Assembly (NCBI RefSeq): GCF_000023025.1
Contig: NC_012997.1
Coordinates: forward strand, 3,779,125-3,843,124
Direction of reading: 5' to 3'
DNA from: Teredinibacter turnerae T7901
GTDB taxonomy: Bacteria; Pseudomonadota; Gammaproteobacteria; Pseudomonadales; Cellvibrionaceae
DNA length: 64,000 nucleotides
Part shown: positions 24,564 through 60,055 of the stretch, piece after piece
Numbering within the stretch: position 1 is the stretch's first letter
Layout: the number at the start of each line of letters is the position of its first letter
Notes under the pieces: model-generated
Told to the model about the DNA's origin: nothing
Database searches by the model: none
The model's input: only the letters and a program-made list of their open reading frames with translations
Position numbers and translations under genes: made by a program

Positions 24564-25012
24564 TCACAGACCTCTGAAATACCACTAAAGAAAACGACTT
24601 TAATTCGCTTAATTCCCTGAAAACACTAACGAAAGTACAACACTTAGGTAGCAGAAAGCTGACGGCAACGTCGACATGTATACCAGTCTTTTTTCCAGGA
24701 TAGACTTTGGTCCAATATGCCTTTACTGTGTACTAGCATACAGTCAACTAGACAATAACAATAAAAAAGATGTTCTCTGCCATTAACTGCGGTTATGGCG
24801 CCAATTTAGGTTTCTTTCTTTTTTTCACCCTGGGGGAACGACTGTTTCCTATGTGAGATACCTATCGCGTAGTTCAGGCCCGCGCCTCGATGCGATTTCG
24901 AGATCAGCCAACATGGATATAAAGGATAACAACGGATAAACCCATCCGGCTGAGCATCCCACTGGGACATCAAACCCTGTAATCCTGAACAGAACTTGTG
25001 GAGATTCTAATA
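24564..25012. promoter_or_regulatory. Upstream region of the xylanase/esterase gene
   Basis: 449 bases between divergent genes. A T-rich run lies near 24810-24826 and the ribosome-binding site GGAG at about 25000-25003. No operator, riboswitch or small gene was recognised. Confidence 0.35.
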
Positions 25013-28000: not shown

Positions 28001-28324
28001 CCACGCGGCCTGCTTATTCTGGATAACCCACACATCGGCAATCTCGACTATCGCTCCTCCTACGCTGCAGCCGCAGCCGGTAAGCGCATTTATGAAGCAC
28101 TGGGTGTGAGCAGCAACATGAGCTTCCACAATAACGTAAGTGACGGCAGCCACTGCGCGTGGAAAAGCGAGTTTGCCCAACCTCTGCGCGATAACGTGTC
28201 GAAGTTCCTGAAAGGCGGCAGCGGCAATACAGGCTCTATCAATGCCCGCTCTGGTAGCACAGTGAACGTGGACTCCTACATCAACTGGACCACACCAAAC
28301 CTGTCCGGCAACCTGGACTTCTAA
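25013..28324 (+). CDS. Secreted multimodular GH11 xylanase / CE15 glucuronoyl esterase
   Basis: 1103 residues. Long-n-region signal peptide (cut near AGTMA-QTL); GH11 xylanase (about 55-255) with nucleophile E142 ([10 protein letters not shown]) and acid/base E239 ([11 protein letters not shown]); serine linker; CBM60/CBM36-like module (about 278-392, [20 protein letters not shown]); serine linker; CBM5/12-like module (about 441-500, [10 protein letters not shown]...LGAC); serine linker; malectin/CBM57-like module (about 561-715); short Pro linker; CE15 glucuronoyl esterase (about 725-1070) with S914 in TGCSRFGK, E937 in PNESG and H1047 in DGSHCAW. The enzyme should cut xylan and also the ester between glucuronoxylan and lignin. 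The ATG at 25013 has GGAG nine bases upstream; a GTG at 24998 is in frame. CE15 enzymes of Teredinibacter are known, so the pairing is not wholly new. Module names come from sequence feel. Confidence 0.9.
26196..26694 (+). repeat. Polyserine linker-coding simple repeats (two long tracts)
   Basis: Two tracts (about 26196-26325 and 26513-26693) are mixtures of AGC, TCC, TCA and TCG codons that encode nearly pure serine linkers of about 43 and 60 residues. A shorter tract lies near 25776-25835. Such linkers are characteristic of Cellvibrionaceae carbohydrate-active enzymes. The mixed codon use means the serine run is selected at the protein level. Confidence 0.9.
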
Positions 28325-36400: not shown

Positions 36401-39400
36401 CAAGGTCGGCGCCCGGTTAACTTCAGCAACAACGATACTAAATGCAGGCAGGGTATCCACGCCGCTGCGCAAATCATTCACACCAACAATAATGTTGCTG
36501 TAGGTACCTGAGTCGGTGAAGCCCGGGGCGCCACTCACGGTACCGGTAGTATCGTCGAAGCTCGCCCACGGTGGCAGGTTGAGTACGCTAAAAGCCAGGC
36601 GGTCCCCGTCCGGATCGAAACCGGTCGGGACAAAACTGTACGCGACGCCTTCAGACCCGGTAGTTGCTGGAGTACCAGAAATTGTTGGGGCCCGATTGGT
36701 ATCGGTAACGAAAATCTGAAATGCGTCGCTCTGAGTAACGCCACCGTTAGCATCATCAACGGTGATTTGAATGCCGTTATAGGCGCCTGCATCGTCAAAA
36801 CCAGGGGTGCCACTTATTTCACCCGTAGCGGTATTAAAACTGGCCCAGGCCGGCTTGTTAGTGATGGAGTAAGTCAGGACATCGCCACTGTTGCCATCGG
36901 CCACCGTTGGAGTGTAACTGAACGGCGTATTTTCAGCGGTACTCTTGCCCTCAACAATAATTACCGGCGCGTAATTGCGCTCAACAACGTCTATATCGAG
37001 AGTGATATGAGAATTTAAGTTGCCATCTGACGCGATGATGAATATGTAGGTGTAAGAGCCAACGTCAGAGTCCGACGGTGATCCAGACAGCGCGCCAGTA
37101 GACGTATCGAAAGACATCCAGCTTGGTTTATTCGCAATACTCCAGGAAATAGCATCACTTTCCGGGTCGGTCGCAGTCGGCGTAAAGCTGTAGCTTGCTG
37201 GCACGCGAACACTTGCTGCCGGGGTACCGGTAATCACCGGTGCTTCGTTAACATCTCGCACGTCCACCGTAATTTTCTGAACGTGGCCGCTAGACGCAGA
37301 ACCAATCACCTGAACCGCGAGCTTGTACTGGTTTGGTATCCCCGACATCACCGGGTTTTCGTAATCAGGCGCAACCTTGAATGACAAGGCACCCGAATTC
37401 GGATTAACGTTAAACAGGTCGCCCTGGTTGTAGTCAGGGTATGGAATCAAAGAATAGGTTACCGTGCCCGACTCGCCGTGAACAGGCACAAGCCCTACCG
37501 AAGTGGTGTTTTCATCCAGGGTGTATGCGGAGTTGTCATTGCTGGTAAAGCTGATCTCAGAATCGTAGGGGCCAGCGGGTGTTGTGCCATCGGTAGCACT
37601 CAGGTTAACTTCCGGGGGCGCATAAGGCCCGGTGCGGTGATCGTAATAAATCTTGCCATCATTCACTTCCTGCTGAGTGAAGCTGGTGATCGCCACTGTA
37701 GGCGCACCAAGGCGCCAGAATATACCGTTGGGCGTAGAATTTATAACAATCGTTACATTACTTGGATCGGTGTCTGCGTCCGCAAACTGCAAGTCGTTTG
37801 AGGTAATAACGTTATCGGCCACATTGCGCAGGTGCAGGTGGTTGTTCACCACAACCGGGCCACTTGTTGCGGGCTTCTCCGGATGCTCTTGCACATCCAC
37901 ATACAGCGAGTAGTTGCGCGCTAAACCGTCACCGTCCTGCACGTAGAGCGAGAGGTTGCGACGACCGCTGGCACGTAAAACAAAAGTGTCGTTATAAGTA
38001 AGTTTACGCACCAGTGCTTGCACAGTCGCTGTTGAAACAGTGCCGAACTGAATGCGCAATGCATTACCCACACCGTCCTCGTAGGTGTCGATATCAGCGA
38101 TTTTGCTGCCTTCATAATAAATTTCGTAGCCGTCGCGACGGAACTGACCCGGGCCATCCCCCTCAGACGTGAAACCCAACACTTCATATTCACCATCAGC
38201 AAAGGAGACGTTAAAACGCAACAAGCCGTTATTGAGGTGAGTGACCGGGTTACCGCCATTGTCTCTATCGGTGAGAATCGCATCGCTATCGACATCCACC
38301 AATTGCGCATCTGTACTCGCATAAGTGATTGTATCCGACTCCACATTTTGCAGGCGTGGCGCCAGAGGATCGGGCACGATGAAGTTCAGAATCAGATAGC
38401 TCTTTGAGCGGGCGTCTGAGGTGTCATAGATTTCGAACGTAATGGGGTAGGTGCCAGGATCTAGACCGGTGCCAATCGCGCCCGGGGCAAAGGTGAAATC
38501 CCCGTCGACCGTGGACGATTCGGTCAGCGTACCTTGCAGGGTACCCAGGCTGCTAACATCAACCGCAGTCCCGGTAATCTGGAAATTATAAGAGTCGCCC
38601 TTTTCAACAATAACGTTACGACTTTCTGGAATATTGTTGCTCACCTCAAACGGCACGGCCGCTTTGGGTTGCAGATCCAGAATAAAGTCGACGTGGCTCT
38701 TGGAGATAACCGTGCCGTCGGCCCGCACGTCTTCAACTACAATGCCGGCGCTGTACAGACCCGGTGTTAAGGTCCCTGAATCGTTCCAGGTAACAACACC
38801 GGTATTAGTGTTGATTGTAAAACCGGTAGGGTTTACGTAACCCCCGGCAAGACCACCGAGCTCGTCTTCTGTCGCAAGACGAAAGCGCATTTTATCGGCA
38901 TTGGGGTCGGTTGAGGTCACCGGGAAGGTGTAACTCTGCAACGTGCTCACACCATCCGACTGCAGTTGCGGCACTTCGTAAATAATCGGCAGATCGATCT
39001 TGGGCGCAAGGTTGCCATTGCTGGTATTCACCAACGTCTGGATATTCCAATTACCATCCGCATTGTTCCGCAAATCACTAATGCGGGCGCCACCATTCCA
39101 GCGAATCAGAAAGGCTTGCCCTTGCGGTATATCGTTAGCCGTAAACGTGCGTGTGCTTAACGCATAATCGGCTGTTGTGGGGGTAGTATCGCCAGGAGCA
39201 TTGTATTCCCCGTTAACATACACCACTTCATCAGACGTCTGAACAAACGTTAAAGGCTGATCGGTACCACTCACGATAAGGCTGCTATTGCTAGGCGGCG
39301 ACATAGAATTCCAACGCCAGGCGGATTTTACCGTCAACTCGAGGTCGTCCAACTGGGTATCGCCATCGGCATCCACCAGGCGCCAGCTCATGGAACCACC

Positions 39401-40003
39401 ACGGAAGTGACTCAATACCGCCTGATACTGCTGCTGGAAACGGGCTGAAAACAGCGCTTGCGGTTGAACTTCACCGCGCTCATATTCGAGCGTCCAGTTT
39501 CCCCCCAACGCAGAAGCGCCGGTGCGGTCCATAGATGCTGCCACGTCCAGACCAGAGTAATCCGACATCGCCGTCAAAAAGTGCTCGCCATCCCGGCCAG
39601 CTGCCACGTCGCACCCATACACATACCAGTCGGCGCCAGGTGTGAGTTGCTGGCCCATTTCCGCCAGGTCTCGCCCGTAAGAAGGCAAAGATACGCTGTC
39701 AATCAGCTGGCCCCCCAGAAAAAGCTCACCAGCTGCACCGTGCGATACCAGGTGCAAGCGACTCACCGGCGCAGAACGCGCGGCCAGTGCATCGCGAATT
39801 TGCGCGAACGGGTTGGTTCCTTGTTTCAGCATCAAAACTTGTGTGTCATCGCCCAGGTCAGACACCATGGCCTGCCATTCATCTACTTGCGGGTCGATAA
39901 CTACAAGATCATTCTCGTCTGCCAGTGCGTTGCGCATAGGCGTTAAAGCGACAAGAAACAGCGCTGCAGCTTTTAGTTGTTTAAGGTGCCAATTTTTAAA
40001 CAT
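30470..40003 (-). CDS. Giant surface protein: DUF4347, Ig/cadherin-like repeats, thrombospondin-3 repeats, GlyGly-CTERM-like segment, OmpA-type C-terminus
   Basis: 3177 residues in one open frame. Order: signal peptide (about 1-29, ...MRNALA); DUF4347 domain (about 30-185, HLVSHGAAGELFLGGQ); beta-rich region with one cadherin-like unit (DLFNVNPNSGALSF) to about 915; nine He_PIG/Ig-like repeats of about 95 residues (about 917-1759) with the recurring NKPSWASFNTATGVLTGTPG pattern, plus one more Ig-like unit; about 950 residues of Asp-rich calcium-binding thrombospondin-type-3 repeats (about 1847-2796); GGGSFG (2808-2813), a hydrophobic segment and KRR (2827-2829), i.e. a GlyGly-CTERM-like signal; a second signal-peptide-like segment; a beta-barrel (from about E2850); one more TSP3 unit; and a peptidoglycan-binding OmpA domain (about 3070-3177). 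It looks like a surface protein fused to an OmpA porin. Probable role: adhesion or surface layer. Confidence 0.88.
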   Translation of the reverse strand: MFKNWHLKQLKAAALFLVALTPMRNALADENDLVVIDPQVDEWQAMVSDLGDDTQVLMLKQGTNPFAQIRDALAARSAPVSRLHLVSHGAAGELFLGGQLIDSVSLPSYGRDLAEMGQQLTPGADWYVYGCDVAAGRDGEHFLTAMSDYSGLDVAASMDRTGASALGGNWTLEYERGEVQPQALFSARFQQQYQAVLSHFRGGSMSWRLVDADGDTQLDDLELTVKSAWRWNSMSPPSNSSLIVSGTDQPLTFVQTSDEVVYVNGEYNAPGDTTPTTADYALSTRTFTANDIPQGQAFLIRWNGGARISDLRNNADGNWNIQTLVNTSNGNLAPKIDLPIIYEVPQLQSDGVSTLQSYTFPVTSTDPNADKMRFRLATEDELGGLAGGYVNPTGFTINTNTGVVTWNDSGTLTPGLYSAGIVVEDVRADGTVISKSHVDFILDLQPKAAVPFEVSNNIPESRNVIVEKGDSYNFQITGTAVDVSSLGTLQGTLTESSTVDGDFTFAPGAIGTGLDPGTYPITFEIYDTSDARSKSYLILNFIVPDPLAPRLQNVESDTITYASTDAQLVDVDSDAILTDRDNGGNPVTHLNNGLLRFNVSFADGEYEVLGFTSEGDGPGQFRRDGYEIYYEGSKIADIDTYEDGVGNALRIQFGTVSTATVQALVRKLTYNDTFVLRASGRRNLSLYVQDGDGLARNYSLYVDVQEHPEKPATSGPVVVNNHLHLRNVADNVITSNDLQFADADTDPSNVTIVINSTPNGIFWRLGAPTVAITSFTQQEVNDGKIYYDHRTGPYAPPEVNLSATDGTTPAGPYDSEISFTSNDNSAYTLDENTTSVGLVPVHGESGTVTYSLIPYPDYNQGDLFNVNPNSGALSFKVAPDYENPVMSGIPNQYKLAVQVIGSASSGHVQKITVDVRDVNEAPVITGTPAASVRVPASYSFTPTATDPESDAISWSIANKPSWMSFDTSTGALSGSPSDSDVGSYTYIFIIASDGNLNSHITLDIDVVERNYAPVIIVEGKSTAENTPFSYTPTVADGNSGDVLTYSITNKPAWASFNTATGEISGTPGFDDAGAYNGIQITVDDANGGVTQSDAFQIFVTDTNRAPTISGTPATTGSEGVAYSFVPTGFDPDGDRLAFSVLNLPPWASFDDTTGTVSGAPGFTDSGTYSNIIVGVNDLRSGVDTLPAFSIVVAEVNRAPTLSGTPAVSVAEDASYSFAPVVNDPDTDNTLTLSITNKPSWASFNTTTGALTGKPGFEDAGTYSGIVISVVDNLGEGNSLPAFTITVTNTNRAPTITGVPATSVTEASNYSFVPSATELDSSDSVSGFSITNKPAWASFNPTTGELSGTPGYEDAGSYNGIVISVTDTVGGTSSLPAFSITVADLNREPVISALPPGQPIAEAETYTYAATATDADSDILTYSIVNKPSWASFNTATGVLTGTPGYDDAGRYDGIVIEALDGKGGRAAVGPFGIQVQNTNRLPTISGTPLPTIAEGQPYSFTVSATDPDTGARLSYRGEYLPSWLSVDPTTGTVTGTPGYEDAGTYANVAIIVEDELGGRDTLGPFAITVTDTNRAPTIAGTAPGSTDEGGSFYFTPTASDPDSDPLTFAVSNKPSWAQFNSNTGVLSGTPGYLDAGQYAGITVTVSDGRGGSAVFGPFSVDVNNLNRAPTISGTAAPKGTEKLAYSFTPSVVDPDTDDVHTFSVTNKPAWASFNTATGMLSGTPQDGDEGTYSGIVISVDDGKGGSDALAPFAIQIDNDNTAPVASGISANIVEDQPYEVTITAQDGENDPLTFIVVDQPEHGTLTGTGPKFVYTPNLDYVGADQFTFRVSDGELQSDLTTASFNVEADLDGDKIIDDLDSDVDGDGIPNAEDGSGDSDDDGIIDSRDTDSDNDGIPDSVEGAEDQDQDGIPNHQDLDSDGDNLPDALEGTVDSDEDGTPDYLDTDSDNDGISDLIEGAEDSDKDGTPDYLDSDSDNDGISDKDEGADDIDNDGIPNYLDDDADNDGMKDADEGTADSDGDGTPDYLDTDSDNDGISDKDEGATDSDNDGTPDYLDTDSDNDGISDKDEGADDIDNDGIPNYRDDDSDNDGMSDKDEGSADSDNDGTPDYLDSDSDNDGISDKDEGSADSDNDGLPDYLDSDSDNDGISDKDEGSADSDNDGTPNYRDEDSDGDGIPDADESQADSDGDNIPDFIDTDSDNDGISDSEEGARDSDNDGVSDYLDTDSDNDGIDDKDESTGDSDGDGTPDYLDTSIDEDGDGIPDIIEGAGDDDGDGIPNYADIDSDNDGILDNQEEGISGKDSDNDGIDDSFDVDETGGVDLDNDGIDDGYVLRDTDEDGIPDMLDPDSDGDGIPDALEAVREPVDSDNDLIDDRFDVDQTGGIDTDGNGIDDRFDAGQTGGPDADNDGIDDTTVPQADADHDGIPDYLDSDSDNDGIPDSVEAGNTGNDTDGDGIDDQYDADFTGGADLNGDGVDDDAALRDSDGDGIPDLRDLDSDNDGFFDVDEAGYPDLDENGMVDDESLVTGPALDSDNDGIPDYLDLDSNNDGINDIEGNAAHVLDEDGDGRIDNMVDSDQDGIHDLLDQQPNAFGSGSDKDHDSVPAGLDRDQDGDGISDAVEGMGDLDNDGLADALDLDSDNDGLPDSLETDRPAPTGVDTDFDGIDDAYDVDVTGGVDADGDGVDDRFQEVDTDGDGLPDYRDLDSDNDGIPDSEEQLLVPLTGMDSDSDGIDDAVDVDNTGGVDANNDGVDDALVVTTDFDNDGLPDYRDTDSDNDGVLDGDENGDFNNDGIVDRLQVDNGVETGVNGGGSFGLWLLMMMGALVLVKRRASRPLLVVALLLASVAGRAAECDYSSAYRQAGCWYLGLGAGVSKLEPEPTDATSWQVNDSSSNAVGVFAGLRLSDHLFAELSHYDLGTATLSSVNPSITLEPEIDYSITGLSAGYWLRNYGARLNAFVKVGLQTLDTTSTNISHQNNSTQFTLGVGGEWLISEKWFARVSLDSYDKDAQAATLSVARYLGKASPKPAKAEPVAAAPADADNDGVIDADDQCPQTPEGVAVNHFGCPEISPVTVHFAFNSAVLSAETQAQLDALAQGVAAANYDFRVKIAGHADWVGSEAFNQGLSEKRANAVANYLSERLQLNAEKWDTRGYGEVKPVADNNSAQGRAQNRRVEITFK
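31610..34465. repeat. Tandem TSP3-coding repeats
   Basis: About 2.85 kb of near-periodic DNA coding for DSDNDGIxD-type calcium-binding repeats inside the giant gene. Several neighbouring units around 33500-34100 are almost identical at the DNA level, so unit number is likely to vary between strains. Long antisense open frames rich in Val/Ile are artefacts of this composition. Confidence 0.9.
34725..37251. repeat. Nine He_PIG/Ig-like domain repeats (coding)
   Basis: Nine successive units of about 280 bases code for modules that start NxAPxIxGTP and contain KPxWASFN(T)xTGxLxGTPG. They are diverged at the DNA level, so this is an old expansion. Confidence 0.85.
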
Positions 40004-48843: not shown

Positions 48844-49209
48844 AATAAAACATCAAAGCAATAGAGTAGATGATTCTGATATATTTTTTCTATGATGCCT
48901 GCTACACCCTTTTGACTCTTTGACCTCCAAAGGCTTTCGGTATAACTAGACGCGCCAACCACCGGTTTCTGCTGGGGTGCGTTGCCAAAATGAGCCGCCA
49001 ATGAAATATTCTCATAAAAACAAACACTTAAAGAGCAAATTAGTGCGGATTTTAACCAAACCTTCATATTGCTGTTAACAAACCGTCACCCTGCGAATCG
49101 ACACTGTGCGCCAATAGATACGTTTGTCTGGAAATCGCTCGTACGCCTTTTAGGGCTAATGGGACGAATTAATGAGTTTGCCAGACGAACCCTTTGAGGA
49201 GCATTTTTC

Positions 49210-50022
49210 ATGACAGTCTCTCAACACGTAAATGCGCGTACCGTGTGGATTTCTGACGTCCACCTCGGCTTCAAAGACTGCAAAGTCGACTACCTCTATA
49301 AATTCCTGTCGTCTGTGCAATGCGACACCTTGTACCTGGTGGGCGACATCGTCGACCTCTGGTCCCTAAAAAAGCGGATCTACTGGCCGCAGGAGCACTA
49401 CCATATTCTGCTCAAGCTCTACGAACTGGCAGACAAAGGCACCCGGGTCATCTACATTCCAGGCAACCACGACGACCCCATGCGCCGTTTCGCCGGACAG
49501 AAATTCGGGCCGATAGAAATAGCCATCGAACACGAATACACCAGCGTATCCGGCAAGAAATATTGGATACTCCACGGTGACGCCGTTGACGCCTACATGA
49601 AATACGATTGGCTAAAACGTATGACCGGTGATGCAGCCTATAATTTATTACTGTTTATCAACCGCTGGGGTAACCGTTTTCGTCGCCTCGCGGGCATGCC
49701 CTATTTCTCACTCGCAGGGCAAATTAAAGATAATATTCACGGCGCACGTGCCGCCATCGAACGCTACAAGAAGCAGGTCATCCGCGAAGCTAAAAAGCGC
49801 CACTACGATGGCGTTATTTGCGGACACATTCATCGTGCCGACCTGGATACAAGCGATAACTTTGTTTACGCCAACACCGGCGATTGGATAGAAAGCTGCA
49901 CAGCACTCACGGAAGATTACGCCGGGAATTTACATCTGTTGCACTGCGTCGATCGAGTAGAGCTGAAAGCCTCCGACCGTGGCGTTCTGGAGGGCAATGA
50001 TGGGGAGTTGGATGCGGCTTAG
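49210..50022 (+). CDS. LpxH-like metallophosphoesterase (UDP-2,3-diacylglucosamine diphosphatase family)
   Basis: 270 residues of the calcineurin-like fold with all metal motifs: ISDVHLG (D15, H17), GDIVDLW (D48 region), PGNHDD, WILHGDAVD and VICGHIHRAD. The DLWSLKKRIYWPQEHYHILLKL segment between motifs two and three is typical of the LpxH/LpxH2 group, which cleaves UDP-2,3-diacylglucosamine in lipid A synthesis; some members act on other substrates. No other lipid A gene is adjacent. A TTTGAGGAGCA site precedes the ATG. Confidence 0.8.
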   Translation: MTVSQHVNARTVWISDVHLGFKDCKVDYLYKFLSSVQCDTLYLVGDIVDLWSLKKRIYWPQEHYHILLKLYELADKGTRVIYIPGNHDDPMRRFAGQKFGPIEIAIEHEYTSVSGKKYWILHGDAVDAYMKYDWLKRMTGDAAYNLLLFINRWGNRFRRLAGMPYFSLAGQIKDNIHGARAAIERYKKQVIREAKKRHYDGVICGHIHRADLDTSDNFVYANTGDWIESCTALTEDYAGNLHLLHCVDRVELKASDRGVLEGNDGELDAA

Positions 50023-50953: not shown

Positions 50954-53737
50954 TTAGTTATTTGCCCAATCAATAGTCCAACCTGCCCACCATGCGTCTG
51001 CAGCAGCAGTACCTGGAGCTACCGCGCCGACATAGTCAGTCTGGTCAAACTCAAAGCCTGAACCGTTATCCATCGCAGTGATAGTTGGTGCGGCAGCCAG
51101 TTTAGCTTGTGCTTCGGTGATAGCAAAAGCGTCGTCGAATGTCATTGTCGCAAGCTCAACCACGTTCGAAGATGCAGCCGTTGGAGTGCCACTTTTGTAT
51201 GCGCCATTTTCGCATTCGGTGAGAATGTTTACCAAAGTCGCTGGAGTATCAACTGTTAAGGTATCACTCACTTTGCTCTGGTCGATACGGATACACCCGT
51301 CGTCGAAGCCAGTTACAGCACTGTTGTAGATATCAACAGTGACTGAACCACGCAGGCGCATGCCTGGTTGCTTGTTACCGTCCAGATTAACAATGTCGCT
51401 ACCAATAACGGTGATGTTAGCGAGTACAGCGCTAGTTTGTGGAACATAGTCAGCATCGCTGGAGTTAGCTTCGACACCACGAGGATCGTTGCTACCGGCC
51501 AACGCGGTTGCAGTCTGGTTTTTAATAATCAGAACGTGCTGAATATTACCCATGTAGCCTTCATCGAAATCCAGATCATCGTCGTCGTTGTTAGTTAACA
51601 CAGCGTACTTAACGTTGACCGTACCACCGAACCATTCGATACCATCGTCCAGGTTACCGTGAATCTGTACGTACTCAATTTCGGTGCCGTAACCTACGCC
51701 TTGCAGAGTAAGACCATTAACTTCGTTATTCAAACCTGCAACCTGACCAGCTTCAGCGATACGAACATAACGGAACACACCGCTATCGTCGGCAGGATCG
51801 TTACCACCGTAAACACCGATTTCGGAACCGCCTTCACCAGTTACGTTACAGGTGGTGCCTGTACCATAACATGGGCCAGTGTCGCCCTGGCCATACTGTG
51901 GAGCCAGACCTTGAATAACAACGCCACCCCACTCACCTTCGCCGTCGTAATCTGCATCAAGAGAGCTGAAAGTGATCGGCGCGTATTTGGTACCGTTGGC
52001 CATAATTTTGTTGCCGCGGGTTACGAGTAGCTTGCCCGAACCCAGAGCTTTAACGCTAACACCTGGATCGATAGTCAGAGTTACGCCGCTGGCTTTAAGC
52101 TCTTCAACATCTGATGGAAGCAGAAGCTGAGTGGTATTACCACGACCCACTCGAACAGTGCCACTCAAACGCCAGTCAATACCAGCAATCAGGGTGTAAT
52201 CTTCGTCAATTACGCCAGACAATGTACACACGTTATCAGCACAAGAAACGAAGTCTGCCTCAGCAGGCACACCTACTTCGCTCAAAGAGCCAGGGATAGT
52301 CCAACCAGCCCACCAAGCTTCAGCGGGAGCGGTACCAGGAGCGACTGCGCCAATATAATCTGTGCTATCGAAGGTGAAGTTTGAATTACCAACCGCTGTG
52401 ATAGCGGACATGGAGCCAAGGTCAGCCTGAGCTTCAACAACAGCATACGCATCATCAAAAGTAGCCACTTGAGCCAATACGTTGTCAGACTCGTCAGCTG
52501 GGCGATCTACTTTATAGAAACCGTTTGCACAGTGACCAATAACATTACTGAATACAACGTTGGAGTTAACGTTGGCTTCATCGTTAATTTCAACACAACC
52601 AGCGTCAAAGCCTTCTACGACGGAGTTGTGTACTTCTACGTTGACCGCACCACGCAAACGCATTCCGGGCTGCATGTTGCCTGGCTGGTTGTTAATGCCG
52701 CTGCCGATGATGGTAAAGTTAGCCAGCACAGCATTAGTTTGCGGTACATACTTTTCCGCACCATTGGAGTTGGCTTCAATACCACGAGGATCGTTATCGC
52801 CAGTTACCGCGTTAGTAGACTGATCCTTAACAATTAACACGTGCTGAATGTTACCAACATAACCTTCGTCGAAATCAATATCGTCGTCGTCATTGTTGGT
52901 CAAAACAGCGTACTTCAAGTTTACAGTACCACCGAACCACTCGATACCATCATCCAAATTACCGTGAATTTGAACATACTCAACAGTTGTACCGTAACCA
53001 ACGCCTTGCAGAGTCAAGCCATTAACTTCGTTATTTAAACCGGCAACCTGGCCCGCTTCTGCAATACGTACATAGCGAATAACACCGCTGTTATCGTCTT
53101 CGATGTCGCCACCGTAGTAACCGATATCTGTACCGCCTTCACCTTCAATATTACATGTAGTGCCCGTGCCGTAACACGCACCCGTGTCACCACCGCCGTA
53201 TTGTGGAGCGAAGCCTTGAACGACAACACCGGCCCATTCGCCAGTACCGTCATAACCTTCGTCGAGCGAGCTAAAGGTGATTGGCATATCGCGCTCACCG
53301 TCAGCCATGATTTTCGAGCCGCGAGTTACAATCAACTTCGCTGTGCCGAGCGCATGAATATGCACGCCTGGTTCGATAGTCAGAGTTACGCCAGCAGCTT
53401 GTAGTGCAGCAACTTCCGCATCAGTTGTTACTTCAGTGGTGTTGCCGTTGCCAACACGCACAGTGCCGCTCATGCGCCACTCTTTATCGGAACTCATGTC
53501 AACAGTGAAGTCTTCAGTGATGTCACCACTAATGGTGTACACATCTGGCTCACTACCGGAACCGTCGACGCAGCTAACAAACGGTGGCAGACCGTCACTA
53601 CAACTCAAAGTAGGAGTTGGCGTAGTTGAAGGCACTGCCGTAGGTTCAGGAGTCTTTTTGTCATTGTCGTCGCCGCCGCAAGCGGTCAGCAAAAAGCTGG
53701 CAGCCATCAGCGGTAGAGCTAATTTCAATGTTTTCAT
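50954..53737 (-). CDS. Internally duplicated beta-helix lipoprotein
   Basis: 927 residues. Lipobox LLTAC with lipidated C20, a Thr/Pro linker (to about 48), then two homologous halves (about 49-490 and 505-927). Each half has DWRLSGTVRVGxGNTT-type, LIVTRGSKIMA, PITFSSLD, GEWxGVVxQGxAPQYG, CYGTGTTCN, IRYVRIAEAGQVAGLNN-type and HGNLDDGIEWFGGTVN segments, an acidic NNDDDDxDFDEGY turn, and an end motif DAWWAGWT. The repeating short strands suggest a right-handed parallel beta-helix; the acidic turns suggest calcium sites. It lies 187 bases downstream of a TonB-dependent receptor on the same strand and probably acts with it at the outer membrane. Substrate is unknown; the Pho box upstream of the receptor points to phosphate or phosphorylated compounds. 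Confidence 0.8.
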   Translation of the reverse strand: MKTLKLALPLMAASFLLTACGGDDNDKKTPEPTAVPSTTPTPTLSCSDGLPPFVSCVDGSGSEPDVYTISGDITEDFTVDMSSDKEWRMSGTVRVGNGNTTEVTTDAEVAALQAAGVTLTIEPGVHIHALGTAKLIVTRGSKIMADGERDMPITFSSLDEGYDGTGEWAGVVVQGFAPQYGGGDTGACYGTGTTCNIEGEGGTDIGYYGGDIEDDNSGVIRYVRIAEAGQVAGLNNEVNGLTLQGVGYGTTVEYVQIHGNLDDGIEWFGGTVNLKYAVLTNNDDDDIDFDEGYVGNIQHVLIVKDQSTNAVTGDNDPRGIEANSNGAEKYVPQTNAVLANFTIIGSGINNQPGNMQPGMRLRGAVNVEVHNSVVEGFDAGCVEINDEANVNSNVVFSNVIGHCANGFYKVDRPADESDNVLAQVATFDDAYAVVEAQADLGSMSAITAVGNSNFTFDSTDYIGAVAPGTAPAEAWWAGWTIPGSLSEVGVPAEADFVSCADNVCTLSGVIDEDYTLIAGIDWRLSGTVRVGRGNTTQLLLPSDVEELKASGVTLTIDPGVSVKALGSGKLLVTRGNKIMANGTKYAPITFSSLDADYDGEGEWGGVVIQGLAPQYGQGDTGPCYGTGTTCNVTGEGGSEIGVYGGNDPADDSGVFRYVRIAEAGQVAGLNNEVNGLTLQGVGYGTEIEYVQIHGNLDDGIEWFGGTVNVKYAVLTNNDDDDLDFDEGYMGNIQHVLIIKNQTATALAGSNDPRGVEANSSDADYVPQTSAVLANITVIGSDIVNLDGNKQPGMRLRGSVTVDIYNSAVTGFDDGCIRIDQSKVSDTLTVDTPATLVNILTECENGAYKSGTPTAASSNVVELATMTFDDAFAITEAQAKLAAAPTITAMDNGSGFEFDQTDYVGAVAPGTAAADAWWAGWTIDWANN

Positions 53738-53924
53738 AATGTTGAGTTTCCGCTTGTAAATTTTGTGATTTGATTACCCGAAAAACAGGTTTTCAATATC
53801 CCTCACGATTCGATGTCCCTCTTCCTCTTCTGAAAAAGGGACGGTTTTCGAATTAGTGTGTGTTTTACCAATCAAATATTAAAAATAAATTACACAAATG
53901 ATCTAATTTGTGAAATTTGAACAC

Positions 53925-56462
53925 TTAAAAGGTGTACGAGTAGCTCATAGAGATTTCTGCACCATTTGAATAGCTTTCAATCGCCTTACCCGAGTCCTCA
54001 AATTGGTATTCGGTTTTTTCATCCAGAATATTTTCCAATTTTATTTTGAACTCTGATTCGTTCGAGAAGGTCAAGCGATAATTCATATCAAGGGACATAC
54101 GCCCTTTTTCAATGATGTTTGAATTGGCCCCACGCACGACACGGTGGATTTTGTCGTCAAAGTAATTCAGCAAAATATTGAGCTGCTGTTGCGTCGCGTG
54201 GTGCTCAATACCGAAATGTATGTTAGCCAACAGGGGAGACTGGCCTTGCAAGTCGCGACCATTCGCGCCCTCACCTTCGAGTCGAATACTATCCTCATCC
54301 AATTCAACTTCCGACTCAATGACACTGACGTTACCACCCAGGTCCAACGCAATGGAGCTTGTCTCCAGCAAAACTTTATTGAAGTCCAGTTCCACACCGA
54401 GTAAATCAGCCGACACCGCATTCCGGAAAGTGTAACCATCGGCCGAAGTACCAGAGCCATCGGTAACAGCTTTTTCTACGGGCTTAGCGATTTGTTTAGA
54501 AAAAAGCGCCAGAGACACGCTGCCGCCATCTTCAAAATAATACTCACCACGCAAATCGAAATTATCAATTTCAGATACTTCGAGGTTCGCATTACCAATA
54601 ATCAATTCATCAGTATCGGGATCGAAAAGTGATGCATCAGACTTTTCGATAATACCCGGGTAGGAAACAGTTTGACTTGCTGACACGCGAACTTGCCAAT
54701 TGTCATCAACTGCGTAATTCAAAGAAATTGCTGGAAGTAAGTTCGACTCATCCACGGAAGGTTCGGTCGCACCAGATTTATTGCTCCCGTTAGGGTAGAA
54801 AATATTTTGCTCAAATGTTTCCTGTCGCAAACCTGCAACCAAGGTGATGTTAGAAGCAATCAAGGTTTCCGTATTGAAGTACACCGCGTTAATTTCAGAG
54901 TCGGCCTGGAAAGTGTCCTGGTTGTCGGTGCGCTTAACCAAACGGTATCGTTGATTTTCGAGATTTTCGGCTGACAGCTGGGTTTCTACATCTGTGGCTC
55001 GATCTGCAGGCGCGCCATTGCGGCCAGGAACAAAACTGTAGCGCGACTGGACCCAGTCTCGGTCTTTCGAGCTATACAGGTAACCCAATTTAAATGAGGT
55101 AGAAACGGACGTGGAAAAGTCTACGGGCATCAAGTAGCTCACCCCGATATCCACACCATCTTCATTTAGATCTGAAAAGCGTCGCTCTGTAGCTGAAGGA
55201 GCAAAGTTGCCTCCCAGAATACGCCAGGTTCGACGATCTGGCTCGTACATCCCGGTATTCGAAATGCCGGCTTGCCATTCAAGTTCGTGGCTGGAGAAAA
55301 AATAATGCTTGCCAGACAACTGCTCAGAGAAAAACTCGCGCTCACTCCAACGCAATACCGCTTGATCAAAAACAGTGTCTTCATAAGTCGCGTAGCCAGA
55401 TTCCAATTTGGTGGTATCTTCCGCTTGACGCAACCAGATAGTCTTACTTAACCACTCGCCGTCCGCATTATCTTCTAAACCAAATACGAGATAGCCGTTG
55501 AGCTTCGAAGTTTTTGTGCTTCGCTCATAACTGCTCACAACATCAGGATCATCTTTCGTCGCATCCTGACGTGCACTTGTGCTGTTACTCAACCCAAGCG
55601 CCAGATAGTAACCGAGGCTACCAAAGCTTTGATCAAAGCGATTGCCTTGGCTCAAGCCCACCCCCCAATCGGGACTGGCGGATTCACGATCAACGTTATA
55701 AATAACGGGGAATTGCTGAGCTAAACGCGCGCTTTCCGCATAGGTGATGATACAGGCGGGATCATCAAAATCGCAGGTTTCAATATTTACAGAACCGTCG
55801 GTACCCTGAAAAGTATTTTCCACTTCCGCTGGCACATCGCGCAAACCATCGTCGTAGGTTAACCAGTCAGAACCGCTACCTTCGTAGGTCACTATGTCGT
55901 TGCCCGTGACATCCAGGTTATAACCCAAAGAGCCGGATAGCTTGAAGACCATTTCATCTGGCAAACCCTTGGTTTTCATGCCGACCGAGCCACCGGTTGT
56001 ACTACCGGGCATTGCCGCGGAATAACTCTTTTGAATTTCAATTCCACCGAGAATATTTGCGGGGAACAAATCCATCTGCACATCGCGTCGCAATGGATCG
56101 GTGGTTGGCATTAAAGTGCCATTTAACGTGCTGGAGATATAACGTCCGTCCAAGCCACGTACAACAGCGTACTTACCGTCCTGTACGGAAACGCCGGCAA
56201 CGCGTTTAACCGCACTGGCGACATTGGAATCACCAAACTTCGCCAACTGATCAGCATCCACAGCATCAATAATTTCGGAGTTCTGACGCTCAATATCCGT
56301 CGCGTTCTCCATCGGCGTGTAGCTGGCCAGAACCATCATCTCTTCAACCATTGGGGCGGCTGAATCTGTTGTGGCATCGGCAGTGGCAGAATCGGCGAAT
56401 GCCTGACTTACACCGCAGGCAACAAGAACGGCCACAGTCGGTGACCAGTTAGTGGATTTCAT
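53925..56462 (-). CDS. TonB-dependent outer-membrane receptor
   Basis: 845 residues: signal peptide (PTVAVLVACGVSQAFA), a TonB-box-like EEMMVLASY (about 40-48), a plug domain (about 55-170: VASAVKRVAGVSVQDGKYAV, VRGLDGRYISSTLNG, GGIEIQKSYSAAMPGSTTGG), then a 22-strand barrel ending YSYTF with the terminal aromatic residue needed for assembly. Such receptors import scarce substrates using the proton-motive force. Substrate cannot be read from sequence. A near-consensus Pho box lies about 165-185 bases upstream, implying induction by phosphate starvation. The next gene downstream is the duplicated beta-helix lipoprotein. Confidence 0.92.
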   Translation of the reverse strand: MKSTNWSPTVAVLVACGVSQAFADSATADATTDSAAPMVEEMMVLASYTPMENATDIERQNSEIIDAVDADQLAKFGDSNVASAVKRVAGVSVQDGKYAVVRGLDGRYISSTLNGTLMPTTDPLRRDVQMDLFPANILGGIEIQKSYSAAMPGSTTGGSVGMKTKGLPDEMVFKLSGSLGYNLDVTGNDIVTYEGSGSDWLTYDDGLRDVPAEVENTFQGTDGSVNIETCDFDDPACIITYAESARLAQQFPVIYNVDRESASPDWGVGLSQGNRFDQSFGSLGYYLALGLSNSTSARQDATKDDPDVVSSYERSTKTSKLNGYLVFGLEDNADGEWLSKTIWLRQAEDTTKLESGYATYEDTVFDQAVLRWSEREFFSEQLSGKHYFFSSHELEWQAGISNTGMYEPDRRTWRILGGNFAPSATERRFSDLNEDGVDIGVSYLMPVDFSTSVSTSFKLGYLYSSKDRDWVQSRYSFVPGRNGAPADRATDVETQLSAENLENQRYRLVKRTDNQDTFQADSEINAVYFNTETLIASNITLVAGLRQETFEQNIFYPNGSNKSGATEPSVDESNLLPAISLNYAVDDNWQVRVSASQTVSYPGIIEKSDASLFDPDTDELIIGNANLEVSEIDNFDLRGEYYFEDGGSVSLALFSKQIAKPVEKAVTDGSGTSADGYTFRNAVSADLLGVELDFNKVLLETSSIALDLGGNVSVIESEVELDEDSIRLEGEGANGRDLQGQSPLLANIHFGIEHHATQQQLNILLNYFDDKIHRVVRGANSNIIEKGRMSLDMNYRLTFSNESEFKIKLENILDEKTEYQFEDSGKAIESYSNGAEISMSYSYTF

Positions 56463-56628
56463 CTATTACACCCCAAGTAAAGTTGAGTGGGCCGCTCGGG
56501 CCAGCATATAGGCTAATTAATTAAGGGCGACCCCAATGGAATCGCCCCATTACAAATTCAGGATTGGAACGCGGCTAGTCCAGCGCACTGTTGTCACCTT
56601 GATTTCCCTCGGCATTCTGTCCGCCATC

Positions 56629-56647
56629 TGTTACAGATATATGACAG
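56629..56647 (-). promoter_or_regulatory. Pho box upstream of the TonB-dependent receptor
   Basis: Read on the minus strand, CTGTCATATATCTGTAACA matches the PhoB consensus (CTGTCATAWAWCTGTCAYA) at all but about one to two positions, with the two CTGT half-sites 11 bases apart. A third, weaker half-site (GGCGGAC) follows in register. The receptor start is about 165 bases downstream. Confidence 0.85.
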
Positions 56648-57050
56648 CCGCGTGACTAACAAACAAAGGTTGTCCCGTGTAAGTAATGTGATGAGTTATG
56701 GTCGGCCATCGACACGATTTTGTGCGTTTTTTGTTCAAATAATTTGGCAGTGGCCGCCAAGACAGGATCGAATCCGCAGCCCGTTACGGTAAATGCGGAT
56801 CTTTACGTTCGTACGATTGTTTTATGAAGGTTTTATTGCAGCTGCGTGACAGGCGATCAAAAACCGTTGACGCGTCTCAGAAATCAGGCGGCGGCGTTGC
56901 TCACATTTTGCCGCATAAGTATGCTTCTAGGCGGAATATCGCTTTCTTGTCGACGGCAATTTTTCGTCAAAGACTACAAGATCGCAACAAAGTGTTAATT
57001 TTTCGTTGGTAGAGTAGACAAAGATTTTCCAGTATCTGCACACCTTAGCG

Positions 57051-57069
57051 TAACAATTTTGACACAGCC
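57051..57069 (+). promoter_or_regulatory. Weak Pho-like box before the PstS-OmpA gene
   Basis: GCGTAACAATTTTGACACA matches the Pho consensus at about 12 of 19 positions and lies about 80 bases before the likely ATG (57151). Plausible only because of its neighbours. Confidence 0.35.
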
Positions 57070-57150
57070 ACGTGGTTTCCTATGCCATTCCGGTATAAAA
57101 GCCGCGAACAGACTATCCGATTTACCTATTGTCGAGACTCCCTTACTAAG

Positions 57151-58545
57151 ATGCTGTCCAGAACCTGTTTACTCTGTTTTGCTTTCTTTCTCGTTTTATC
57201 GCCCATTGCCCGCAGCCTCGAACCCGAGCCATTTGCGCCCGCAACTAAAGGTCTGCTGTTTACTATGGAGGGCTCCAACACCATTGGTGCCCATCTGGCG
57301 CCCACCTGGGCTGAACAGTGGATGACCGCTAAGGGCGCTACAGGTGTTTCCATAGAGCCGTCTGAAAAAGACAACGAGTACCGCATACTCGGCCGCAACG
57401 GCCTCAACCCGGTGTACATCGATATTCACGCTCACGGCTCTACTACAGGCTTTGCAGGCTTGCTGGCGAAAACCGCGGATATCGCTATGGCATCACGCGC
57501 TATTAAATCGTCCGAGGTCGAATCTCTTGCGGCCGACAATGGCGACATGCTCGATTTTTCCGCCGAGCATGTTGTAGCTATTGATGGACTTGCAGTCATT
57601 GTTCACCCTGCCAACCGAATAGACAGCTTGACGGTGTCGCAAATACAGCAGATTTTCGCCGGTGAGATCCGTAACTGGATTGATGTGGGCGGCGCAAACA
57701 GACCTATAACAGTATATGCGCGCGATGATAAATCGGGAACCTACGACACCTTCAAAAGTCTGGTGCTTAAAAAGACACATAAGCTGGTTGCAAGCGCAGG
57801 GCGCTACGAATCGAACGACAATCTTTCGGACAGCGTTGCCGCCGACCCGTCGGGTATCGGTTTTGTTGGGCTGGCCTCGGTGCGTTCAGCCAAGCCCGTT
57901 GCGGTGAGCGAAGCGCGAACCCTAGCTCTGCTGCCGGAGAAAATTCACGTCGCCACTGAAGACTATCCGCTGTCACGCCGCCTGTTTATGTACACACCCG
58001 AAAAGGTAACTGACCCGAACATTCTGGAGTTTTTGAAATTTGCGCAGGGTAGCGCAGGCCAGGCCGTCGTTGAGAAAATCGGCTTCGTTTCTCAAAATCC
58101 AGTCAGTATGAAAATACCTGACTTAAACGGCCCCAACGAGTATCAGGCGCTAAAAGATTACGCAGAGCGGTTGTCGGTCAACTTTCGCTTTCAACCGGGA
58201 AAAGCCAATCTGGATAACAAAGCGCTGCACGATATATCGCGCTTGGTAGACTATGTTAAAAGCCTCCCCGGCGAACCACTTCATGTACAACTGGTTGGCT
58301 TCAGCAACCCTGAAGACAGCGACAATCGGGCGGATGTACTATCTAAACTGCGTGCATCCAAAGTAAAGATTGAGTTGTTTCGCAACGGTTTAACAACCGC
58401 GCCAATTATGGGATTCGGTTCCGATGTACTGGTCGCCAACGACAATGGCAACACCAGTGCGAAGAACGAACGAGTGGAAGTCTGGCTGTTTAATCCCAAC
58501 AACAAACGCGCTATGCCTACAAAAACAACGGCATCTAACTACTGA
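57151..58545 (+). CDS. Phosphate-binding-protein-like / OmpA fusion
   Basis: 464 residues from the ATG at 57151; the frame opens 23 codons earlier, but the signal peptide MLSRTCLLCFAFFLVLSPI starts here. The first domain (about 30-310) is PstS-like: EGSNTIGAHLAPTWAEQWM, HGSTTGFAGLL, DIAMASRAIKSSE, HVVAIDGLAVIVHPAN, VSQIQQIFAGEIRNW, YARDDKSGTYDTFKSLVL. The second (about 345-455) is OmpA-like: NFRFQPGKANLDNKAL, VQLVGFSNPEDSDNRADVLS, KNERVEVWLF. It would bind phosphate in the periplasm while held to peptidoglycan. It is divergent from the TonB receptor. Confidence 0.88.
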   Translation: MLSRTCLLCFAFFLVLSPIARSLEPEPFAPATKGLLFTMEGSNTIGAHLAPTWAEQWMTAKGATGVSIEPSEKDNEYRILGRNGLNPVYIDIHAHGSTTGFAGLLAKTADIAMASRAIKSSEVESLAADNGDMLDFSAEHVVAIDGLAVIVHPANRIDSLTVSQIQQIFAGEIRNWIDVGGANRPITVYARDDKSGTYDTFKSLVLKKTHKLVASAGRYESNDNLSDSVAADPSGIGFVGLASVRSAKPVAVSEARTLALLPEKIHVATEDYPLSRRLFMYTPEKVTDPNILEFLKFAQGSAGQAVVEKIGFVSQNPVSMKIPDLNGPNEYQALKDYAERLSVNFRFQPGKANLDNKALHDISRLVDYVKSLPGEPLHVQLVGFSNPEDSDNRADVLSKLRASKVKIELFRNGLTTAPIMGFGSDVLVANDNGNTSAKNERVEVWLFNPNNKRAMPTKTTASNY

Positions 58546-58680: not shown

Positions 58681-59502
58681 CTAGTATCTAGCTAGAACGG
58701 TAGATTTCCCGCCACCATCTTGAAAGCTAACACTGTCCCGTGCATGGGTTAGCACACAGGCCTCTGAGTCGGCACACTCCATTGCTATTTCCAGAGGCAC
58801 ATATTCAATCCTTACCTGATGATATTCCCCGCTTTCTTGCGCGATATTTGAGCGCCCGCTGAATTGCGCCAATAAGCCATCCACATATTTCAACTTAAGC
58901 GGCTTCATCAACAATGCAAAAAAACCATTGGCAGGCCGTATAGTAAAACAAGTAGCCGCCTCGTCCTTACAGTCGTCCCGCTCTGCTTTTAAACGAAACC
59001 GCTGTTGACGGGTAGGTAATAAATAATCGAACTCAAGCGAACTGCCTTCAAGCAATTTGTCCCAATGCTCGAGCACGTAATTGTTGAAGCCCGCGTCGAT
59101 AACCAGTTCGTCCGCATTTTTTAGGGTTTTCTCTTTTGCCGATTTACCCTCTATCGCGTAACGTACAGATATTGCGCCGTCCGACAGATGCGAAACTTCA
59201 ATAACTTCGTCAAGCCGCATATTGGTTTGAGTGAATCCCGGCGTGCTCTTACCGCTGCTATAGTCGAGCTCCTTGCGCGCAAACACATCCCCGGAGGGCT
59301 CCGCGTAAATAACCTTGTGTCGTGTGTCCGAGGGGAAACGGTGAATCTCGATATAGGCAACTTTATTCGACTCTAAATCGAACGCCGTACCATGAATGAC
59401 CTTTTCCGCATGCGCGGGTTCAGTGAACGCAAACATCATAAATGCGCATACAAACGCGCTTTTCCGTATCCCATAAAAAAAAGCACAGCCTCGCCTACGC
59501 AT
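58681..59502 (-). CDS. Periplasmic hypothetical protein of the lipid-modification cluster
   Basis: 273 residues: basic start (MRRRGCAFFYGIRKS), hydrophobic segment (AFVCAFMMFAFTEPAHA) that suits a signal peptide cut before EKVIHG, then a beta-rich periplasmic part with IEIHRFPSDTRHKVIYAEPSG and FRLKAERDDCKDEAATCFTI (a probable disulfide), plus a second cysteine pair (MECADSEACVL). No named family is recognised. Its start overlaps the DUF2878 gene by eight bases, so it belongs to the same operon as the Cfa-like enzyme. Confidence 0.7.
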   Translation of the reverse strand: MRRRGCAFFYGIRKSAFVCAFMMFAFTEPAHAEKVIHGTAFDLESNKVAYIEIHRFPSDTRHKVIYAEPSGDVFARKELDYSSGKSTPGFTQTNMRLDEVIEVSHLSDGAISVRYAIEGKSAKEKTLKNADELVIDAGFNNYVLEHWDKLLEGSSLEFDYLLPTRQQRFRLKAERDDCKDEAATCFTIRPANGFFALLMKPLKLKYVDGLLAQFSGRSNIAQESGEYHQVRIEYVPLEIAMECADSEACVLTHARDSVSFQDGGGKSTVLARY

Positions 59503-60055
59503 TAGTTTCTTCTCCTACGACTAGACGACTGCTCTTCATCGCTCGTTCCACCTTTGCAGCAACGATGAGATAAGCAGGCAGGACCAGCGCCCAAACAAGC
59601 CCCTCAACCAAGTAATAAATAGATAAAGGAAGGTTTAACGAAGCATTGGCAAACTTGGCTCCGCCGATATAGCTCAGCGGCGCGAGGGTAAAGCCAAGTA
59701 GGGCTGCCAACCACAAATGTGGCATGAGCCATCGCAAGCCAAACAACAGCAGGGGCATAAATGCCAACCAGATACACAACAACCAGACAGGCGCAAGCAG
59801 ATCCTGTACTCCGAAAACGGATATTGCCGTTTGATAGTGGATGATATTGCTATGCGCCAAAACAGAATCCAGCAACCATCCAGCAACACCGCCACAAAAG
59901 CAAAAGCCCCAAAACTTCGTGTTGCGCGGCAAAAAGGATATCTGCAGAAGAAAATACACCGCCAACGCGGCTACCGCCAGGGTATTGTCGCCCTGAACGG
60001 CAACCCACCAAACACCCTGGAATAAAATGCTATTGATCAGAATGCGTTTAACCAT
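59495..60055 (-). CDS. DUF2878 membrane protein
   Basis: 186 residues with about five or six membrane helices (ILFQGVWWVAVQGDNTLAVA, FYLLQISF-type second helix, FCFCGGVAGWLLDSVL, LLAPVWLLCIWLAFMPLLLF, LAALLGFTLAPLSYIG, LSIYYLVEGLVWALVLPAYL). The pattern fits DUF2878, a family often found in Cfa/DUF1365 clusters. Function is unknown. It is 125 bases downstream of the Cfa-like gene, with a hairpin between them. Confidence 0.75.
   Translation of the reverse strand: MVKRILINSILFQGVWWVAVQGDNTLAVAALAVYFLLQISFLPRNTKFWGFCFCGGVAGWLLDSVLAHSNIIHYQTAISVFGVQDLLAPVWLLCIWLAFMPLLLFGLRWLMPHLWLAALLGFTLAPLSYIGGAKFANASLNLPLSIYYLVEGLVWALVLPAYLIVAAKVERAMKSSRLVVGEETNA

Follow-up and report, generated by a model that had tools for sequence, protein, structure and literature searches.

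In Caulobacter crescentus, the surface lipoprotein ElpS is induced at low phosphate and is encoded beside a TonB-dependent receptor, CC0171, with general secretion genes following in the elpS locus; higher extracellular alkaline phosphatase activity accompanies ElpS overproduction, and regulation of cc0171 is separate from that of elpS (PMC2996285, in part). In Bacteroidota, the Flavobacterium lipoproteins FI, FII and FIII, considered here with PUSIII, are also induced at low phosphate, reportedly share 31–36% identity with the Caulobacter lipoprotein and have been modelled on a polygalacturonase, and the gene cluster of FI includes a TonB transporter (PMC8115612, in part). The SusCD/PusCD systems, of which PusCD is under low-phosphate control, are alike in outline, joining a TonB transporter to a surface lipoprotein (PMC8115612, in part). 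Finally, PlcP lipid-remodelling loci carry a phospholipase gene and Pho boxes in the cluster, with a non-phosphorus lipid gene nearby in about two-thirds of strains (PMC4796936, in part).

The window analysed here, a 64,000-nucleotide stretch of Teredinibacter turnerae T7901, contains a TonB-dependent receptor gene, a lipoprotein gene encoding two beta-helix domains, a divergent gene for a PstS–OmpA fusion and a Pho box (Table 1), all of which the first-pass annotation had listed. The receptor and lipoprotein form a pair of the ElpS/CC0171 kind, a family already described though little understood, and this pair, judged from sequence, is probably turned on at phosphate shortage. In our reading, to which we give a probability of about 0.65, they would be a PhoB-activated two-gene cassette in a Pho island, importing a phosphorus-bearing ligand and swapped as a unit between lineages. 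Low-phosphate induction of this kind of pair was already known from Caulobacter and from Flavobacterium FI–FIII (both sources in part); what is new is that receptor and lipoprotein behave as one exchangeable cassette. Unlike ElpS/CC0171, the window cassette has the receptor first, a doubled lipoprotein and a Pho box before the first gene, and it is exchangeable and placed in a Pho island.

Table 1 Features of the cassette and its surroundings, in window coordinates
Feature	Position	Strand	Evidence
Four Pho-box-like repeats in tandem at 11-bp spacing, preceding the metallophosphoesterase gene	49050..49089	+	
Calcineurin-like metallophosphoesterase, putatively PlcP-like, at one end of the slot	49210..50022	+	PF12850 and PF00149 above cut-off
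ElpS-type lipoprotein, two beta-helix domains (residues about 40–442 and 489–864)	50954..53737	-	Lipobox, half–half identity, predicted model, fold comparison, homology
TonB-dependent receptor, encoded first in the cassette	53925..56462	-	Pfam, homology
Pho box, followed after 10 nt by CAGAAT	56630..56647	-	Box scoring
Weaker second Pho-box-like site, oriented as the main box	56835..56852	-	Score 17.95, shuffle p 0.007
Degenerate Pho-box-like site preceding the fusion gene	57048..57065	+	By itself not significant
Fusion of a PstS-like phosphate-binding domain with an OmpA domain	57082..58545	+	Pfam, PDB matches

The receptor and its beta-helix lipoprotein

Homology of the pair to ElpS/CC0171 runs through a syntenic Phenylobacterium locus, in which a lipoprotein gene, a receptor gene and general secretion genes (among them GspD, as Pfam confirms) follow one another. 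The protein in the elpS position there, a proxy used as reference in place of ElpS itself, is 32% identical to the window lipoprotein (E 4e-55; 35% and 7e-53 for the second half), and the receptor in the CC0171 position is 28% identical to the window receptor over nearly the full length (E 2e-88). Unlike at the ElpS locus, no type II secretion genes were recognised by eye near the window cassette. The receptor has the expected plug (PF07715, 42.5 bits, cut-off 23.9) and barrel (PF00593, 63 bits, cut-off 27).

The lipoprotein carries a lipobox, LTAC, and may be surface exposed. Its description as two homologous beta-helix halves holds: the halves are 64% identical, and the predicted model and fold comparison agree. 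The best matches of the model are polysaccharide lyases, epimerases, hydrolases, NosD and phage tailspikes. Pfam assigns the window lipoprotein to no family, and Beta_helix matches at E ≤ 1 occur in 7 of the 29 aligned family members (best 3.3e-6). A sequence search of the PDB gave no match for the lipoprotein at E ≤ 10 or for the receptor at E ≤ 0.01. Being a beta-helix, the lipoprotein is unlike that of SusCD/PusCD, and we rejected a SusD-type cap because neither window protein matches a SusD family in Pfam or NCBIfam at E ≤ 1. The claimed pairing recurs among relatives: of 80 named loci (the best 80 of 574 confirmed stretches), 70 have a receptor gene as immediate neighbour of the lipoprotein gene.

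The fold matches, together with the polygalacturonase template of FI–FIII (PMC8115612, in part), could also point to a carbohydrate-acting or carbohydrate-binding lipoprotein that is under Pho control without serving phosphorus import, its receptor importing either glycans or some nutrient in co-limiting supply, for instance when lipids or the wall have been remodelled. Such a reading would fit the relatives that lack Pho boxes and a Pfam scan of 20 cassette-neighbour proteins, of which 18 are not phosphorus genes by name, the two exceptions being PhoX and PBP_like_2. It would also fit the strongly acidic character of both proteins (net charge −87 for the lipoprotein, −66 for the receptor), a property that does not favour the capture of anionic phosphorus polymers simply by charge. 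A beta-helix fold, however, reveals no function, and the company that the cassette keeps argues the other way: a PlcP-like gene and a PstS–OmpA gene in the window's genus, a PhoX-like gene in locus L042, PBP_like_2 in L053, and PstS-like open reading frames preceding the cassette in L108, L125 and L157. We regard the carbohydrate reading as unlikely. Our literature search found no ligand for ElpS-type pairs.

Pho boxes upstream of the cassette

By itself the window box is weak, since 19 sites in the genome, the box included, are equally good. Two further lines were discarded as support: a genome-wide count of Pho boxes, which at 3 mismatches did not clearly outnumber hits to the reversed pattern, and a pattern fitted post hoc to the window site, which matches that site alone without mismatch and carries no evidential weight. 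The genome does encode PhoB (358.7 bits, cut-off 296.2).

Relatives are more informative, and the conservation of the box, claimed earlier, is upheld by them. Boxes at p ≤ 0.05 precede the first cassette gene in 22 of 28 cassettes, the window included, a set that counts L054 as type B despite the lack of a receptor beside it (21/27 without it, and 12/14 for type B) and leaves aside L044 (whose promoter is the window's), L059, L069 and L070 (other layouts) and L071 (no receptor). Forward boxes exceed reverse ones (Wilcoxon p 5e-5), and the cassettes exceed 169 other ORFs (p 4e-11), a background that still included several fusion, metallophosphoesterase and second-cassette genes and the L044 copy of the window promoter. 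Among the named loci (the best 80 of 574), forward versus reverse boxes number 15/20 versus 1/20 for type A, 16/16 versus 6 for type B and 5/11 versus 3 for the alpha group; for the Bacteroidota-and-other loci, mostly from Bacteroidota as are FI–FIII and PUSIII, the E. coli-type box at p ≤ 0.05 gives 0/17 versus 1. Near-duplicates such as L047 and L091 occur across the sets, so these counts are not fully independent. Four scored gammaproteobacterial loci of another layout fall outside the four groups (L111, p 0.04; L115, 0.27; L142, 0.41; L116, 0.58). Scoring left out two loci with too little upstream DNA and the 10 of 80 without an adjacent receptor. Five of those 10 show no receptor at all, some lying at contig ends.

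In 13 of 54 cassettes the box is followed at exactly 10 nt by a TANNNT hexamer, which never occurs at 9 or 11 nt, the 54 being those above the score limit among 61 mostly chosen for good boxes; the window's own hexamer is not of this form. Boxes are poorly found by the standard score in the sister genus g4: among 37 further type B loci, of which g4 contributes 32, it gives 9 boxes against 2 in reverse. A relaxed score, devised after viewing the g4 sequences, gives 15/32 in g4 and 4/5 elsewhere, with none in reverse. The weak g4 boxes and the 19 equivalent genomic sites would suit a chance match at the window, with the operon under other control, but the conservation, strand asymmetry and −10 phasing among relatives make this very improbable. 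At the level of predicted promoters, conserved boxes with a phased −10 element link phosphate starvation with many of the gammaproteobacterial members; many members of the family lack a Pho box, so that belonging to it does not in itself imply a phosphorus system.

For the window, we retain PhoB control as a prediction. Low phosphate would bring PhoB to the box and turn on both genes, probably as one transcript; the lipoprotein, anchored at the surface, would bind or process a phosphorus-bearing ligand and pass it to the receptor for import. Of the phosphorus-source uptake proposed in the first-pass annotation, the role in phosphorus starvation is consistent with the relatives ElpS and FI–FIII, and a phosphorus source as the substrate is a prediction.

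Putative phosphorus-related genes on either side

The cassette appears to sit in a Pho island, with the PlcP-like gene on one side and the PstS–OmpA gene on the other. The metallophosphoesterase is present in 7 of 8 genomes of the window's genus and scores 52 bits against the LpxH model, below its cut-off of 134. As in PlcP loci with their Pho boxes (PMC4796936, in part), this putative PlcP-like gene is accompanied by Pho-like elements: the tandem repeats occur in 7 of 10 loci examined (the window, L040, L042, L044, L061, L063 and L067, of which L044 is nearly identical in sequence to the window) and were not seen in L090 or L097, nor by a narrow pattern in L084 (genome G002).

The fusion matches PBP_like_2 (1.1e-29) and OmpA (9.1e-09; PF00691 above cut-off), and its best hit among solved phosphate-binding proteins is 4n13 (E 8.9e-24); against TIGR02136 it scores 188.7 bits, slightly below the cut-off of 206.6. 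Its true start is perhaps near 57151, at the Met of MLSRTC, which by eye precedes a signal-peptide-like stretch. The OmpA domain keeps the Arg of what we take to be the usual Asp and Arg peptidoglycan-binding pair and has Asn at the position aligned with the Asp, so anchoring to peptidoglycan is uncertain.

The fusion had been cast as a dedicated partner of the pair, and this part of the earlier interpretation is not supported, in contrast to the box conservation, the pairing and the duplicated beta-helix. The fusion occurs in 104 of 144 genomes of the family, on which basis we rejected it as an obligate partner. Within the window's genus it adjoins the cassette in 6 of 8 genomes; in the 12 genomes of other genera compared, it is either on a different contig or separated from the cassette by about 130 kb or more. 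In the window, its promoter offers no more than a degenerate Pho-like match. It is thus ordinary in the family and, as far as compared, beside the cassette in the window's genus alone.

Sequence downstream of the degenerate site before the fusion gene resembles, by eye, that after a good box in genome G005. The weaker second site gave p 0.03 in a repeat shuffle run on L169, and genome G004 has a similar site, ATGTCACTTATCTGCAAT, upstream of the fusion gene (score 17.7, p 0.01).

Apparent exchange of the cassette

Compared with the nearest species, the proteins flanking the cassette are 88–99% identical and the receptor–lipoprotein pair 61%, the pair having been replaced as a block between genomes G000 and G004. 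Across 31 genomes of g4, divergence of receptor and lipoprotein is coupled at 0.83; the pair tracks its neighbours weakly (0.08–0.28), and neighbours on opposite sides of the cassette track each other at 0.43–0.74. These values come from single gene families present in 31/31 genomes and chosen after earlier measures, with the contig-end locus L217 dropped. A first flank measure in g4 was abandoned as too noisy, upstream and downstream flanks agreeing at only 0.24. In an earlier comparison of 37 loci, five of them outside g4, median cassette conservation over 466 pairs was no lower than that of the flanks, and the gap exceeded 15 points in 15 pairs only. Related bacteria appear to swap receptor and lipoprotein together at a set place in the chromosome. 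Relatives of the lipoprotein occur in 21 of 72,556 plasmid records, which had no bearing on the matter.

Replacement as one block suggests a joint function for receptor and lipoprotein, and some selective force favouring variety. It bears on a further alternative, in which the lipoprotein would assist secreted phosphatase activity in the manner of ElpS, the receptor being a separate or signalling protein, with no capture–import pair. The phosphatase effect of ElpS overproduction and the separate regulation of cc0171 (PMC2996285, in part) speak for it; the 70/80 adjacency (best 80 of 574), the divergence coupling and the joint replacement suggest partnership instead, and we consider the accessory reading distinctly improbable.

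Under the preferred cassette reading, recombination between lineages would exchange the pair as a unit while the Pho promoter, signal peptide and N-terminus are kept. Tentatively, and at somewhat below even odds, the slot could be an exchangeable specificity module, holding alternative co-adapted cassettes, two dissimilar types of opposite gene order among them, at one Pho-controlled position, its diversity perhaps driven by phages or bacteriocins that exploit the starvation receptor, or by differing phosphorus ligands. We liken the proposed swapping to that of siderophore receptors: the fpvA pyoverdine-receptor types of Pseudomonas aeruginosa are allelic TonB receptor types exchanged at one locus. 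Unlike the window cassette, fpvA belongs to a siderophore system, which is not known to have a beta-helix lipoprotein or Pho control. Among the papers listed by a literature search with most subscription journals outside its scope, none, judged by title and abstract opening, treats the exchange of these cassettes or the PstS–OmpA fusion. ElpS-type pairs are widespread, and with their exchange as a block, ligand choice and phage sensitivity become testable questions.

Kinship with ElpS and repeat units

The TonB receptor and the double beta-helix lipoprotein form a cassette that comes in two orders, receptor first (type A) and lipoprotein first (type B), with the two genes directly adjoining in 70 of the 80 named loci (the best 80 of 574 confirmed stretches). 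In a Phenylobacterium locus, L164, the lipoprotein and receptor genes are followed by GspC-, GspD- and GspE-like ORFs, of which GspD was confirmed; elpS, cc0171 and the type II secretion genes are described as following one another in this way (PMC2996285). Both halves of the window lipoprotein match the L164 lipoprotein (32%, E 4e-55; 35%, E 7e-53), and the two receptors match over nearly their full length (28%, E 2e-88). ElpS is described as produced under phosphate starvation, surface-located, released and associated with phosphatase activity (PMC2996285), and FI to FIII of Flavobacterium have been reported as relatives (PMC8115612). Given this homology and these published proteins, the ElpS/CC0171 kind is already known, so that the novelty attached to the receptor-lipoprotein system in the first-pass annotation falls away for the kind and holds for the window's variant.

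Members of the lipoprotein family have one, two or three units. For 108 units of selected multi-unit proteins, the tree-nearest unit lies within the same protein in 60 cases, and in 47 it comes from another protein, where it holds the same position: units have been duplicated or homogenised on many occasions. In the tree, both units of the window lipoprotein group with those of its congener G005, and the two units of G004, another genome of the genus, pair with each other. A second ElpS-like protein of the window's genome (locus L069) has no directly adjoining receptor gene; about 4 kb off, on the opposite strand, is a receptor-like ORF. Loci L070 and L059 show a third layout, with a receptor, very large lipoprotein-like proteins (about 1500 aa) and single-unit relatives in tandem.

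Features of the window and, where named, of other loci
Feature	Position	Strand	Remarks
Secreted-looking protein	24998-28324	+	1108 aa; long poly-serine linkers, carbohydrate-active look (by eye)
Very large repetitive protein	30470-40003	-	3177 aa; cadherin-like and Asp-rich repeats, sorting-like hydrophobic stretch, OmpA-like C-terminus (by eye)
Metallophosphoesterase	49210-50022	+	PF12850 match
Double beta-helix lipoprotein	50954-53737	-
TonB receptor	53925-56462	-
Near-identical tract, G000/G004	56301-56700		about 400 bases
Pho box of cassette	56630-56647		2 mismatches out of 14
Degenerate Pho-box-like site	57048-57065		before fusion
PstS-OmpA fusion	57082-58545	+
DUF2878 gene and 273-aa protein gene	58681-60055	-	conserved pair; 273-aa protein without Pfam match
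Second ElpS-like protein (L069)	G000 C1:3233220-3234137		single-unit, about 403 aa
Unknown 573-aa protein and PhoX-like protein (PF05787), L042	9449-12798		3' of type A cassette; Pho-like site upstream of 573-aa protein
General porin (PF13609), L058	12908-13945		near type B cassette; good Pho-box-like site upstream

Pho boxes before the cassette

The contig to which the window belongs is 5,193,164 bases long. Across the whole genome, 19 sites, the window's own included, are equally good Pho boxes, and the case for Pho control therefore rests on relatives. As an own-genome control, the PhoB gene was found and the pstS box scores 21.2 against 20.7 for the window box; the region upstream of phoB has no clear box (score 14.95).

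A first set combined the window's cassette with 27 from the same genus, family and order. At shuffle p<=0.05, 22 of these 28 have a box in front (9/13 of type A; 13/15 of type B, counting L054, which has no adjoining receptor). Scores are higher on the forward than on the reverse strand (p 5e-5), and higher than before 169 other ORFs (p 4e-11); that background still contained a number of fusion, metallophosphoesterase and second-cassette genes, as well as L044's copy of the window promoter. Among the named loci (best 80 of 574), the box occurs in 15 of 20 receptor-first cassettes (reverse strand 1), in all 16 of type B (reverse 6), in 5 of 11 alphaproteobacterial loci (reverse 3) and in none of a fourth group of 17, made up of 14 Bacteroidota and 3 others (reverse 1). 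The 20 are 18 gammaproteobacteria by name, an unplaced proteobacterium and a single Desulfobacterales locus, which has the box; the 16 are 15 Alteromonadales-like genera and an unnamed gammaproteobacterium. The hexamer TANNNT stands exactly 10 nt past 13 of 54 boxes, never at offsets 9 or 11 and in 0 to 4 cases at each other offset; the window's hexamer at 10 nt is CAGAAT.

Counting against Pho control, the standard score is reached by only 9 loci (reverse 2) in an additional type B set of 37, of which 32 belong to a second genus of the family (g4). A relaxed, post hoc score, devised only after inspection of those 37 sequences, passes 15/32 in g4 and 4/5 elsewhere, with no reverse hits.

Replacement and coupling of the pair

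The metallophosphoesterase flanking the cassette is present in seven of eight genomes of the window's genus, and in all seven the cassette adjoins it or lies within about 7 kb. Type A occurs in G000 (the window's own genome), G002, G004 and G005, and type B in G001, G003 and G007, with receptors 27-33% alike between the types. G000 and G004 share 88 to 99% identity in the flanking proteins against 61% in the receptor and lipoprotein. G005 is the more distant genome, yet its pair resembles that of G000 more closely (71 and 79%). In DNA, 49-50 of 50 bases agree in each bin from 56700 to 56301; inside the receptor gene agreement drops first to 40 of 50 and further on to 29-39 of 50 per bin, identity is about 49-74% down to about 50100, and it regains 90% or more in the metallophosphoesterase. 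Because fourfold-degenerate sites agree at 42-43% in the pair against 71-82% in the flanks, the difference is due to replacement and not to fast protein change alone. Promoter, Pho box, signal peptide and the first 54 or so codons were retained across it. The near-identical tract exceeds the surrounding flank in similarity and is possibly a recent exchange tract.

Coupling was measured in 31 g4 genomes (465 genome pairs) in which the slot is shared and the neighbours are the same. The correlation is 0.83 between the identities of lipoprotein and receptor and 0.43 to 0.74 between opposite-side neighbours (four families in 31/31 genomes), and cassette genes correlate with those four families at 0.08 to 0.28 and with sparser ones at -0.01 to 0.26. 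Permutation gives p 0.001 both for the lipoprotein-receptor correlation and for those opposite-side pairs that were tested; the cassette-neighbour correlations are weak yet above chance (p 0.003 to 0.035), and exchange is thus not unconstrained. With five genomes dropped randomly in 300 rounds, the gap between the -0.9/+4.7 kb pair and the cassette stays at least 0.39. With earlier, cruder flank measures this pattern did not stand out cleanly.

The Pho island and a proposed mechanism

The metallophosphoesterase has tandem 11-bp-spaced Pho-like repeats, an element found in 7 of 10 loci inspected, and its Pfam family is that given for Flavobacterium PlcP (PMC8115612); together these suggest a PlcP. 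By score it is not an LpxH. Of 144 family genomes, 104 match the greater part of the fusion (one match beginning at residue 128), and any match occurs in 126. A Pho box precedes it in 19 of 29 relatives (reverse 4), G004 being one of the 10 without; the reverse-strand sites of these 29, taken together, are likewise above chance (p 0.0016). The window's own fusion gene, outside the 29, has no passing box. G000 to G005 have the fusion beside the cassette; G006 and G007 do not. Comparison of positions in 12 genomes of other genera (G010, G012, G013, G014, G017, G019, G020, G025, G027, G035, G095 and G156) places it on a separate contig or no nearer than about 130 kb. The DUF2878 gene pair marks the opposite edge of the island in several genus members.

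Under the control of PhoB, which would bind at the box, the pair would capture and then import a phosphorus-bearing ligand. Since both proteins are strongly acidic and the fold is of a carbohydrate type, that ligand could be glycan-like or calcium-bridged. Receptor and lipoprotein would be co-adapted partners, exchanged as one module.
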